From contig NZ_JAKJHX010000185.1 of assembly GCF_021648855.1 (NCBI RefSeq), positions 1 to 5,775 of the forward strand: DNA of 5,775 nt, given 5' to 3'. The DNA is from Tychonema litorale BBK16 (lineage in GTDB: Bacteria; Cyanobacteriota; Cyanobacteriia; Cyanobacteriales; Microcoleaceae). Within the stretch, counting starts at the first letter, position 1. Each line of letters opens with the position of its first letter. The position numbers were made by a program, and so were the translations under genes. Positions 2,278 through 5,775 of this stretch are shown here, piece by piece. The notes beneath the pieces are model-generated. The model was given only the letters and a program-made list of their open reading frames with translations, searched no databases and had not been told where the DNA came from.

Positions 2278-2691
2278 TTAAAAAACGTATTTTTCTGCAA
2301 CACGCCAGTAGCGGGAAAAACGCTTTAAATCAATGTAACCATCGTAGCGCACAAAGGATTCTGGGGGCAAAACTTCTACTGGGATCGATCGCGTAATTTC
2401 CCGACAAGTATCCTGAAACCGAGGACTCGGACTTTCTGCTGTCACCACTTGATTAGCCCCAGATTCTTTAGCAAAAGCGATAATTTCCGTAGCAACATCG
2501 CCACGCCGAATCACTACTGGCAACTCCAGCAAACATTCGTAAATAAATACCATCCGTTTAAGACTTAACTGCCATTCATCTATTAGCGCATCATCCCAAA
2601 CCCAAATCGCCTTAGCTTCGGGGTGCGCTTGGAAAGCAGGGCCTTCGGGACTCAGACAGTCGCCGTGTAACCAAATAATTGGATTGTTCAT
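2278..2691 (-). CDS. Separate photolyase-type N-terminal alpha/beta domain protein
   Basis: A 137-residue protein resembling only the N-terminal Rossmann-like (antenna-binding) domain of photolyases and cryptochromes. It shows strand 1 with IIWLHGDCLSP (5-14), strand 2 IWVWDDAL (29-36), a helix with LKRMVFIYECLLEL (44-57), strand VVIRRGD (59-65), then AFAKESGANQVVTAES (72-87) as helix and strand. The start lacks the usual WFRRDLR signature and resembles the GDQLSP start of FeS photolyases (DPRP-like domains). I chose ATG 2691 because this start matches the domain. A longer GTG-started frame (from 2769) adds 26 residues encoded by heptad repeat DNA. The flavin-binding catalytic domain is the upstream gene (stop at 2773, 81 bp away), so the two probably form one transcription unit and a two-subunit protein. 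There is no catalytic site here. The likely role is antenna binding or partner assembly. The ribosome site is weak. Confidence 0.78.
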   Translation of the reverse strand: MNNPIIWLHGDCLSPEGPAFQAHPEAKAIWVWDDALIDEWQLSLKRMVFIYECLLELPVVIRRGDVATEIIAFAKESGANQVVTAESPSPRFQDTCREITRSIPVEVLPPESFVRYDGYIDLKRFSRYWRVAEKYVF

Positions 2692-2772: not shown

Positions 2773-3627
2773 TCAACGACCTTTTTTCTGACGATTCCAA
2801 CTTTTAGAGCCGCCGCTGCGATCGACCTTTTCTCCCAAAGGAAATAACTTCGCTTCCAACTGTTCGTAACTTCCCTCAAAATCGCATTGTCCATAAAGAG
2901 CACAATCGCGACAATAAACCGCCTTAGTATAACGCTCCAAATTCTCCCGATTAAAAAAGTAAGCCTTGTGACTAAAAGTGCTCGCCACCCATTGCCAAGA
3001 AAGATTATTACTCGCCGGATCTCCATCTAGCAAATGTGCCAAAAACCAGCGAGCTCCCGTTTGCCAACGCACTTTACGCCAGTGTACGAGATAAGCAGCC
3101 ATCCACATCCTCTGGTGATTGTGCAAATAACCAGTTTCCTGCAATTCGCGACTAAAACTGTCGATGCAAACCAAACCAGTCGTCCCCTCAATGATATCTT
3201 CCGGCATAGTTTCGCCGTATTGTGAAGCAGTATAACCAGTTTTGTAGAGTTCCTGGTCTTGCCAAATACCGTTTCCCAATTCTGCATAAAGTCGTTGCCA
3301 ATAATCTCGCCAACCCAACTCGTTGACAAGTTTTACTGCATCTTCTTGGTGTAGCACCTTTGTCAGTACGAAATCCCGCACTTCTGCAAGGCTCAAAACA
3401 CCGTAACGTAAATATGGCGACAACCTAGTTACCGCGCCGTTGAGGAAGTTGCGGGTTGAGCTGTACTTGGCGGGATCGACTTGTTGTAGCGCTGTTTCGG
3501 CGGCTTTGCGCCCGCCTAGGGTGGGGGATACGTGACTGTCCCTAGCCTCGGCTTCTGGGAACTGTTGGCGCAGGTAGGTAATTAATTCTTCGCGATCGGC
3601 AAATTCTCGCTTCATGTCGTGAGTCAT
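2773..3627 (-). CDS. Split photolyase/cryptochrome: FAD-binding catalytic domain with four-cysteine pattern
   Basis: A 284-residue protein covering only the helical FAD domain of photolyases, which normally follows an alpha/beta domain. Signatures: RLSPYLRYGVLS (68-79); ELGWRDYW (103-110), with E103/W106 matching the substrate Glu/Trp of E. coli photolyase (E274/W277); GYLHNHQRMW (166-175); W188 and W211 at the 23-residue spacing of the electron-transfer Trps W359/W382; and SNNLSWQWVAST (206-217), with N207 at the flavin-N5 Asn position. The third triad Trp is not evident. The only cysteines are C154, C239, C242 and C248. From memory, FeS photolyases hold a [4Fe-4S] cluster with Cys at about +0, +88, +91, +104; here it is +0, +85, +88, +94, in similar context (CID..., YC..C, C-x-F). 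An iron-sulfur photolyase catalytic subunit is inferred. The partner domain is the next gene downstream; ribD is divergent. Start ATG 3627 (M5 possible). The family is certain, the cluster is likely but unproven. Confidence 0.9.
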   Translation of the reverse strand: MTHDMKREFADREELITYLRQQFPEAEARDSHVSPTLGGRKAAETALQQVDPAKYSSTRNFLNGAVTRLSPYLRYGVLSLAEVRDFVLTKVLHQEDAVKLVNELGWRDYWQRLYAELGNGIWQDQELYKTGYTASQYGETMPEDIIEGTTGLVCIDSFSRELQETGYLHNHQRMWMAAYLVHWRKVRWQTGARWFLAHLLDGDPASNNLSWQWVASTFSHKAYFFNRENLERYTKAVYCRDCALYGQCDFEGSYEQLEAKLFPLGEKVDRSGGSKSWNRQKKGR

Positions 3628-3702: not shown

Positions 3703-4860
3703 ATGGCAACTTTTCCGACGGGCGCTAATGCGATCGCCACCTCAACTAAACAACTGGAAAATAGCGCAGAAATTCAAGAGTTCGATCGAGCCATGATGCG
3801 CCGCTGCATAGAATTAGCCCGCCGCGCTCTTGGCAAAACTGCTCCTAATCCCCTCGTCGGTTCAGTCATTGTTCGTGACGGCAAAATTGTCGGCGAAGGA
3901 TTTCACCCCGGTGCAGGCCAACCTCACGCCGAAGTTTTTGCACTCCGGGAAGCGGGGGAACTGGCCGCCGGAGCGACGGTTTATGTGAGTCTGGAACCAT
4001 GTAATCACTATGGACGGACTCCTCCCTGTACCGAAGCTTTAATTAAGGCAAAGGTGGCAAAAGTAGTAGCTGGCATGGTCGATCCGAATCCTTTGGTAGC
4101 TGGTACAGGACTGGCCCGATTGCGAGAAGCTGGGATTGAAGTTGTGGCGGGGGTAGAAGGCGAAGCTTGTCAAAAACTGAACGAGGGTTTTGTACACCGG
4201 ATTTTGTATCGCCGACCTTTGGGAATTTTGAAATATGCGATGACTTTAGACGGTAAAATTGCTACAAGTAGCGGTCACAGCGCTTGGGTAACAGGCGAGG
4301 AGGCTCGGAGTGAAGTACACAGTGTGCGTGTCGGCTGTGATGCGGTGATTGTGGGGGGAAATACGGTGCGTCTGGATAATCCCCAACTGACGAGCCATCA
4401 ACCTAATAGCAATAATCCCCTGAGAGTGGTGATGAGTCGCTCTCTGGATTTGCCAAAGTCGGCTCGTTTGTGGGAAACCTCTGCTGCACCTACTTTGGTG
4501 TTGACTGAGCCTGGGGTTAATCGGGAATTTCAAGCATTTTTGATAGCAAAAGGGGTGGAAGTTGTGGAGTTGTCGCCGCTCACACCGGCGAATGTTATGG
4601 CTTATTTGTACGATCGATCTTTTCTTTCTGTACTGTGGGAGTGTGGTGGTACTCTGGCGGCAAAAGCAATTGCTGACGGTGCGGTACAGAAAATTATGGC
4701 TTTTATTGCTCCTAAAATTGTCGGAGGCTCAAAGGCTCCAACTCCTGTGGGAGATTTGGGGTTTGCCAAAATGACTGATGCTTTAGTTTTAGAGCGAGTT
4801 TCTTGGCGCACGGTGGGTACAGACTGTTTGATGGAAGGCTATTTGAAAAGTAAAGATTGA
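3703..4860 (+). CDS. ribD: RibD, bifunctional diaminohydroxyphosphoribosylaminopyrimidine deaminase / 5-amino-6-(5-phosphoribosylamino)uracil reductase
   Basis: A 385-residue cytosolic enzyme for the second and third steps of riboflavin synthesis: Zn-dependent deamination of the pyrimidine, then NADPH-dependent reduction of the ribose. The deaminase domain (about 31-150) shows APNPLVGSVIV (47-57), the catalytic HAE (H75, E77) and PCNHYGRTPPC (99-109), with H75, C100 and C109 as Zn ligands. The reductase domain (about 170-385) shows KYAMTLDGKIA (177-187), WVTGEEAR (195-202), VIVGGNTVRLDNPQLT (215-230), WECGG (312-316) and PKIVGGSKAP (337-346). Both halves look complete, and the length is normal apart from about 30 extra N-terminal residues before M31-M32, where many RibD proteins begin; a start at 3793 is therefore possible. 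It is divergent from the split photolyase, which needs its pathway's end product FAD. No FMN riboswitch is seen upstream. The identification is very secure. Confidence 0.97.
   Translation: MATFPTGANAIATSTKQLENSAEIQEFDRAMMRRCIELARRALGKTAPNPLVGSVIVRDGKIVGEGFHPGAGQPHAEVFALREAGELAAGATVYVSLEPCNHYGRTPPCTEALIKAKVAKVVAGMVDPNPLVAGTGLARLREAGIEVVAGVEGEACQKLNEGFVHRILYRRPLGILKYAMTLDGKIATSSGHSAWVTGEEARSEVHSVRVGCDAVIVGGNTVRLDNPQLTSHQPNSNNPLRVVMSRSLDLPKSARLWETSAAPTLVLTEPGVNREFQAFLIAKGVEVVELSPLTPANVMAYLYDRSFLSVLWECGGTLAAKAIADGAVQKIMAFIAPKIVGGSKAPTPVGDLGFAKMTDALVLERVSWRTVGTDCLMEGYLKSKD
3730..3737. other. HIP1 octamer GCGATCGC
   Basis: Second exact HIP1 palindrome, inside the N-terminal extension of ribD. It encodes part of a poorly conserved stretch (residues 10-12). 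It is a lineage marker only. Confidence 0.85.
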
Positions 4861-4923: not shown

Positions 4924-5520
4924 ATGGTTGAAATTTTGATTTGGAGTTTGATGGTTGGCAGTCTGGGTTTAGAGTCTGTGATCGTGGGTAATTTTGTGAA
5001 CCGCGAGCAATTGACGAGGGGGCAAAAAAACGATGATGAGGAGGAAGTTTTGACTCGGTACGATTCTCAAGAAGGAAACTTAGCTGGGCGGGATAGTTCG
5101 CAATCAACCAGCAATTTCATAGCTGATGGTATGATTGTGGAATATAAAATTGTGCGGGCTAGCAGCGATGTATTTCGGAATCCTGCTATTTTTCAAAAGC
5201 TGTGTCGAGAAGAGGCGGAATTTGGCTGGATAATGCTAGAAAAGCTGGATGATAGGCGGGTGAGGTTCAAACGCCCGATCGCACTTCGGGATATCCAGAG
5301 GCCAGATTTACCACCGTTTGACCCTTATCGCACTCATTATGGCCCGATGTTGAATCGGATCAATCTGGCTGGTGCGATCGTATTTCTGAGTGCGATGTTA
5401 CTTCCTGCTGTTTTGGGCTATGCTTTGGTGTCTACTACTCTAATGAGAAGTCGCTCTAATATGCCTCTGGCTCCTATTCAATCTATGCCTTCTCCGGAAG
5501 CTCCAGAAAATACTAATTAG
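4924..5520 (+). CDS. Conserved cyanobacterial membrane-anchored protein of unknown function
   Basis: A 198-residue protein that I recognise only as a hypothetical family seen in cyanobacteria. Residues 1-25 are moderately hydrophobic (possible weak anchor or mis-set start). Residues 30-68 are acidic and polar (DDEEE at 37-41). The compact conserved-looking core at 70-140 contains EYKIVRAS (73-80), FRNPAIFQKLCREEAEFGW (84-102), LEKLDDRRVRFKRP (105-118) and DPYRTHYG (133-140). One clear transmembrane helix (about 147-172) and a Pro/Ser/Met-rich tail of 26 residues follow. The EEAEFGW...LEKLDDRRVRFKR pattern suggests a small alpha/beta domain held at the membrane. No catalytic motif is visible. 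Start ATG 4924 has no clear ribosome site; M10 is an alternative and M70 would keep just the core and anchor. It lies 63 bp after ribD on the same strand, possibly co-transcribed. Coding status is good; function is unknown. Confidence 0.8.
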   Translation: MVEILIWSLMVGSLGLESVIVGNFVNREQLTRGQKNDDEEEVLTRYDSQEGNLAGRDSSQSTSNFIADGMIVEYKIVRASSDVFRNPAIFQKLCREEAEFGWIMLEKLDDRRVRFKRPIALRDIQRPDLPPFDPYRTHYGPMLNRINLAGAIVFLSAMLLPAVLGYALVSTTLMRSRSNMPLAPIQSMPSPEAPENTN

Positions 5521-5575
5521 GGAATTGGGAATTGGGAATCGGGAATTGGGCATAGGGAATTGGTAATTGGTGATC
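5520..5575 (+). repeat. Heptad array (GGGAATT), eight units, starting inside a stop codon
   Basis: Eight units in 7-bp register: gggaatt, gggaatt, gggaatc, gggaatt, gggcata, gggaatt, ggtaatt, ggtgatc. The first G is the last base of the TAG stop codon of the preceding gene. The G-rich strand is sense. The array is opposed by the C-rich array at 5692-5775, and the two can pair over roughly 50 bp. Confidence 0.9.
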
Positions 5576-5691: not shown

Positions 5692-5775
5692 AATTTCCAA
5701 TTCCCAATTCCCAATTCCCCATTACCAATTCCCAATTCCCAATTCCCAATTCCCAATTCCCAATTCCCAATTCCC
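5692..5775 (-). repeat. Heptad array (GGGAATT on minus strand), twelve units, cut by window end
   Basis: Twelve 7-bp units fill 84 bp: aatttcc, aattccc three times, cattacc, then aattccc seven times without error up to the last base of the window. The array probably continues beyond. It is the most homogeneous array here, which suggests recent expansion, and it is opposite in orientation to 5520-5575. Confidence 0.9.

Follow-up and report, generated by a model that had tools for sequence, protein, structure and literature searches.

A probable split, domain-reversed photolyase with a predicted [4Fe-4S] cluster, encoded by two adjacent genes of Tychonema litorale BBK16

The stretch of Tychonema litorale BBK16 DNA analysed here (5,775 nucleotides; hereafter the window) makes up contig C185 in a genome of 5.27 Mb, and its open reading frame (ORF) list, combined with Pfam and NCBIfam scans, gave six ORFs of interest (Table 1). 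One of these encodes the flavin adenine dinucleotide (FAD)-binding, catalytic half of a photolyase of the short photolyase-like (SPL) or Phr4 type, which matches PF03441 FAD_binding_7 with an E-value of 2.3e-23. A second gene, for a small antenna-type domain, lies directly downstream on the same strand, with its ATG 81 nt past the stop of the FAD-half gene; this partner gene was absent from the original prediction, a reading of the DNA letters centred on the FAD half. Together the FAD half and the relative of an antenna half encoded downstream probably form a split, domain-reversed photolyase, whose four conserved cysteines are predicted to bind a [4Fe-4S] cluster. The argument is built on what can be read from sequence, namely the two genes and their families, the four conserved cysteines, co-inheritance of the genes, and fused forms in which the FAD domain comes first.

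In a Pfam scan up to E 1, PF03441 was the sole family found in the FAD-half chain, with neither a PF00875 nor a PF04244 domain, and the curated NCBIfam photolyase/cryptochrome models all scored far under their cut-offs (PRK10674 equivalog, 92.6 bits against 506). The closest relative of the FAD half among the matches listed was from Microcoleus anatoxicus (93% identical). Alignment with class I photolyases upheld the claim of the original prediction that the flavin pocket is of the classical type. Conservation was followed across a wider set, 205 rows that include mutually close relatives (208 rows were given, of which the partner row P0245 was dropped and the FeS-less inverted photolyases L008 and P0246 were counted apart). 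Here N170, R173, W188, D201, N207, W211 and W213 were unchanged in every row, D203 was kept in 204 and E103 in 202, while position 174 was Met in 193 and Leu in 12. We take E103, N170 and M174 to be the class I lesion-contact positions. Likewise, as read off the alignment and presuming the E. coli tryptophan-chain numbering used, W211 and W188 take the places of tryptophans one and two in the electron chain of E. coli, and a residue other than Trp occupies the third place. The structure model of the FAD half (predicted local distance difference test score, pLDDT, 88.6) aligned with PhrB (4dja) between model residues 1–273 and chain residues 68–482, given as range ends, and this span takes in PhrB Cys454.

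As originally predicted, the 284-aa ORF contains exactly four cysteines, at 154, 239, 242 and 248 (spacing +85/+3/+6). All four were invariant in 121/121 rows, comprising the window protein and the 120 homologues listed (68–93% identical, the near end of 5953 matches), and the full set was present in 201/205 rows of the wider set, so the check on orthologues that had been proposed came out in favour of the pattern. Among the exceptions, P0326 had one cysteine replaced, P0351 had lost all four, and in P0359 and P0363 the C-terminal cysteine region was altered or lost. In the wider set 114 rows had a spacing of 85/3/6 and 75 had 85/3/7, with the last gap ranging from 4 to 14. The iron-sulfur bacterial photolyases of the PhrB/CryB type (FeS-BCPs), with which the cysteines had been compared, were given there as spaced +88/+3/+13, and this is the spacing both of the FeS-BCP from the same genome (352/440/443/456) and of the PhrB cluster cysteines (350/438/441/454; PMC3204975). 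Profile alignment using hhalign placed the four SPL cysteines on the FeS-BCP cysteine columns (E 4.4e-19 global, 2.6e-16 local), as the proposed ligand assignment required; the FeS-BCP side consisted of six PF04244 proteins of the same phylum, one from the T. litorale genome itself, with L104 lacking the cysteine set. The chief length difference between the two was the loop between the third and fourth cysteines. Conservation together with this column match indicates that the pattern is real and not due to chance, and it is likely, judging by sequence, that the four conserved cysteines hold a [4Fe-4S] cluster.

By plain sequence the partner had no match among PDB sequences up to E 1, and PF00875 appeared under its cut-off only; its kinship with class I N-terminal domains was found through a profile match and a structure model. 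When the models of the two halves were compared with known structures, FeS-BCP chains came among the top matches for each, level with class I chains. In the C-terminal tail of the partner F113, G118–L122 and R124–W129 were invariant in 23 rows, yet the isolated model gave a pLDDT of <50 for residues 113–137.

We sampled 386 cyanobacterial genomes (requested completeness at least 90%), calling a FAD half where an SPL-type FAD domain was found at E up to 1e-45. Both genes were present in 82 genomes, the FAD half only in 1, the partner only in 2 and neither in 301, giving totals of 84 genomes with a clear partner and 83 with an SPL-type FAD domain; weak partner matches in G262, G323 and G402 (E 5e-5 to 1e-3) were set aside and these genomes treated as partner-less. 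The lone genome with a FAD half only (G052) encodes a 451-aa FeS-less chain with additional C-terminal sequence, whose match to the partner profile was not significant (E 0.61). Of the partner-only genomes, G403 has a broken partner and a weak FAD-half remnant (E 0.11), and in G360 the partner stands at a contig end. Taking the first place per genome, and defining adjacent or fused as a partner ≤600 nt downstream on the same strand, 55 of the 82 pairs were adjacent or fused, 4 lay within 20 kb, 12 were farther apart on one contig and 11 were on separate contigs. In one adjacent split pair (G247, locus L108) the FAD half is without the cysteine set, and its partner frame comes directly after the FAD-half stop codon in the same frame, which indicates that the pair can persist after the cluster is lost.

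Of the named loci (the 80 best among 583 confirmed ones), 43 had an adjacent partner, 11 were fused, 1 had the partner near, and in 25 no partner ORF lay inside the locus, several of these last being cut by contig ends. When the whole genomes of those 25 and of the near case were searched, a partner match was obtained in 25 of the 26, although G011 yielded a 42-residue fragment at the end of a contig and G024 a partial match; in G021, a Chloroflexi metagenome-assembled genome (MAG), the whole-genome search gave no partner, and the contig stops just after the FAD half. The system is distributed over many filamentous cyanobacteria beyond N. punctiforme, and over Chloroflexota, Acidobacteriota and Deinococcus. 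In Deinococcus a fused protein with the FAD domain first is carried on three plasmids, while QL22, a fourth, has the two genes overlapping, and the partner domain was C-terminal in 120/120 relatives listed for a fused query, these having been chosen by similarity to a fused protein. Changes between fused and split states numbered at least seven on a 118-row tree, two of them forced by well-supported branches. This tree was made by a quick method with no bootstrap and counts changes only, not the direction of fusion or fission; loci with the partner out of reach were scored as split, and L033 and L053 were left out as incomplete.

Several other arrangements were observed. In three Nostocales loci (L010, L011 and L012) the partner ORF is in frame after one stop codon and a few bases, and the arrangement looks like a fused gene cut by one stop. 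The pair in L023, a MAG labelled Tatlockia, sits among cyanobacterial tree rows, which could reflect transfer or a mixed bin. Furthermore, P0283, P0284, P0285 and P0287 (688–709 aa) join a Deinococcus-type inverted photolyase to a C-terminal uracil-DNA glycosylase domain (PF03167) as a three-domain DNA-repair fusion, with the Pfam matches rechecked for P0283 and P0287.

The window pair is a system of the Phr4/Phr5 kind known from marine Synechococcus; with the fused Phr6, Phr4/Phr5 of marine Synechococcus/Cyanobium has been described as a photolyase of reversed domain order (Haney 2022, PMC9426592). In both, a separate FAD-domain gene is followed on the same strand by a photolyase-domain gene, fused forms exist, and the cysteines of RS9916 Phr4 (C169, C254, C257 and C263; PMC9426592) have the +85/+3/+6 spacing of the window protein, a spacing shared by Phr6. 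Nostoc punctiforme is said to carry the same set, and Phr4 and Phr5 were proposed to heterodimerise or to be joined by frameshifting (PMC9426592). However, seven bases separate the genes there, against 81 nt with 7-base tandem repeats here, and this gap would make frameshifting into one chain unlikely in the window; in addition, the genes are non-adjacent as assembled in 27 of the 82 cyanobacterial genomes with both. According to the same source (PMC9426592), UV-C survival of a phr4 mutant was 20–30 times lower and its UV-B survival equal to the control, while in E. coli the Phr4/Phr5 pair raised UV-C survival, with no significant difference between light and dark, and had no effect after UV-B.

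The FAD half also fits the SPLs ('short photolyase-like', Xu 2021, cited in PMC9178010 and PMC9649867 and treated also in PMC9498864), which are called CPD (cyclobutane pyrimidine dimer) repair enzymes with an Fe-S cluster (PMC9649867). Like them it is a short chain with the FAD domain only and a class I-like pocket, and it has the four cysteines of some SPLs; unlike the SPLs, which these sources describe as having no alpha/beta domain, it has a related domain encoded by a co-inherited separate gene. The account of SPLs as Fe-S CPD repair enzymes reportedly rests on a Rhodococcus fascians protein (Xu 2021). Rhodococcus was absent among the 30 matches listed of 179 plasmid records matching an actinobacterial fused query. 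From FeS-BCPs (PhrB, CryB), whose cluster-ligand columns its cysteines share, the window chain differs in having no PF04244 domain, in lying outside their clade, and in having 5 residues between Cys3 and Cys4 as against 12–15 (PMC3204975). From class I CPD photolyases, whose flavin-pocket and lesion-contact residues it keeps, it differs in having no N-terminal PF00875 domain; the class I protein of the same genome, for its part, has no cysteine pair at C-x2-C spacing.

NewPHL or Phr7-type inverted photolyases have the FAD domain first and extra C-terminal sequence, as in the order of the pair. We assigned P0246 (Ruegeria) and L090–L094 to this type from their architecture, and P0246, the one checked, differs in being without the four-cysteine set. 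Homology of the NewPHL-type C-terminal domain to the partner was marginal and was set aside (hhalign probability 38–57% with fused forms included, 10% with split partners only); the same C-termini gave 0.3–0.5% against class I and FeS-BCP N-terminal domains. The Persicobacter C-terminus gave at most 0.4%. The phrase 'NewPHLs or SPLs' with inverted domain topology in PMC13274461 comes close to linking SPL and Phr4. The link of SPL to Phr4/Phr5 was not met in passages of PMC9178010, PMC9649867, PMC9498864, PMC9426592, PMC9659335, PMC3204975 and PMC13274461, and searching the main text of PMC9426592 for the words 'SPL' and 'Xu L' gave no match. Thus the pair fits Phr4/Phr5, its FAD half fits SPL, and the lineage is one already described and no novel hybrid; what is added here is the link between these names, the wider distribution, and the co-inheritance even when the genes are apart. 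The identity of the window pair as a split, domain-inverted, four-cysteine photolyase is well supported.

In such an enzyme the two polypeptides would pair like the two domains of an ordinary photolyase, with the partner's conserved C-terminal tail packed against the FAD half and the partner carrying a putative light-harvesting or structural cofactor. Reduced FAD, excited by blue light, would give an electron to the CPD in a class I-like manner, as suggested by the retention of E103, N170 and M174, and the cluster may be structural, supporting the C-terminal region, or may aid DNA binding. The pairing, an antenna cofactor and CPD specificity are each likely on present sequence evidence. Retention of these three positions speaks against repair of 6-4 photoproducts by the same split enzyme, which we consider unlikely, as do the class I-like pocket and an FeS-BCP already encoded in the same genome (G000); the latter is a 506-aa PF04244 protein which, with a 485-aa conventional photolyase (contigs C134 and C91), brings the photolyase systems of T. 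litorale to at least three. Repair of 6-4 photoproducts was nevertheless inferred by Haney et al. from the Fe-S cysteines (PMC9426592), and FeS-BCPs are treated as a prokaryotic 6-4 photolyase subtype (PMC9178010), whereas SPLs are called CPD repair enzymes (PMC9649867).

It is distinctly unlikely that the FAD half is a complete, stand-alone SPL and the downstream gene an unrelated stress protein of similar fold, in view of the almost complete co-occurrence of the genes (both in 82 genomes, one without the other in 1 and 2), single-chain fusions with the partner at the C-terminus throughout the list picked by the fused query, and the profile match of the partner to class I N-terminal domains. 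We also think it highly improbable that the four cysteines bind zinc or another metal in place of [4Fe-4S]. The Cys3–Cys4 spacing is shorter and more variable (4–14) than in FeS-BCPs (12–15 residues between; PMC3204975), but all four cysteines align with the FeS-BCP cluster ligands and an SPL cluster has been reported second-hand (PMC9649867).

In a 40-row placement tree the six PF04244 rows formed their own clade (100/100) with no SPL rows inside. Only 56% of the bootstrap trees had a branch that set the SPL rows apart, and the best tree needed two changes; SPL as a single clade is therefore not established. Synechococcus-labelled L028 and L034 were among the SPL rows at unresolved forks (RS9916 Phr4 was not in the tree), and the class I rows attached among such forks, away from the FeS-BCPs. 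Long branches meet in this tree, and no branching order among the SPL, NewPHL-type, class I and FeS-BCP groups was read from it. The original prediction of a hybrid, an intermediate or a separate lineage holds as regards separation from the FeS-BCP clade, but not as regards novelty, the lineage being already known as SPL and Phr4. That the protein represents an intermediate stage in evolution between class I photolyases and FeS-BCPs has the least credit with us: class I-like pocket residues are joined with FeS-BCP-type cysteines, and the attachment of class I rows is compatible with a path through SPL-like forms, but nothing in the tree puts SPL between the two and the lineage has been described before (PMC9649867, PMC9426592).

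Beyond the pair, the window holds four further ORFs of interest (Table 1). RibD is a divergent neighbour of the photolyase gene, and a RibD relative was found in 7 of the 80 named loci (an eighth match, L002, is the locus of the window itself and was not counted). All seven are labelled Microcoleus, Tychonema, Microcoleaceae or Oscillatoriales, and a functional link between RibD and the photolyase was dropped on account of this confinement. Tandem repeats of 7-base units (GGAATTG, TGGGCAT, TAACAAA, AATTGGG and AATTCCC) occupy intergenic regions at 2124–2192, 2707–2736, 2745–2773, 5515–5570 and 5692–5775, the gap between the two photolyase genes included.

Table 1. Features of the window, with positions counted from its first nucleotide.
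Feature	Position	Strand	Remarks
FAD-binding, catalytic half (284 aa) of an SPL / Phr4-type photolyase	2773..3627	-	PF03441
Codon of Cys154, predicted Fe-S ligand 1	3166..3168	-	invariant 121/121; on FeS-BCP Cys1
Codon of Cys239, predicted Fe-S ligand 2	2911..2913	-	invariant 121/121; on FeS-BCP Cys2
Codon of Cys242, predicted Fe-S ligand 3	2902..2904	-	invariant 121/121; on FeS-BCP Cys3
Codon of Cys248, predicted Fe-S ligand 4 (after a shorter C3-C4 loop)	2884..2886	-	invariant 121/121; on FeS-BCP Cys4
Flavin-pocket motif SNNLSWQWVAST, residues 206-217	2977..3012	-	class I type by alignment
Partner gene encoding a Phr5-like alpha/beta domain of antenna type (137 aa; ATG at 2691)	2278..2691	-	
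Partner conserved C-terminal tail, residues 113-137	2281..2355	-	proposed (putative) FAD-half interface
RibD, flavin-synthesis enzyme	3703..4860	+	divergent neighbour of photolyase gene
370-aa protein			no Pfam match
Cyclic-nucleotide-binding-domain protein			in window
198-aa protein			without family match

SPLs have been proposed as ancestors of photolyases and cryptochromes, being named for their missing antenna-type domain, and an SPL root is described as giving the simplest tree (PMC9649867). We are evenly divided over whether 'short' photolyases, rather than being minimal ancestral enzymes, supply the catalytic half of a domain-inverted Fe-S photolyase that is obligately bipartite, has been fused and split repeatedly, and assembles even from genes megabases apart. 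If they do, a main reason for placing the root of the cryptochrome/photolyase family at an enzyme without an antenna would fall away. Likewise, if the cyanobacterial and Deinococcus forms bring their antenna-type domain with them, whether as a neighbour, at a distance or fused, the 'short' state would more likely reflect fission than a primitive condition. The window pair would itself be a natural split photolyase, and offers a directly testable pair of proteins.
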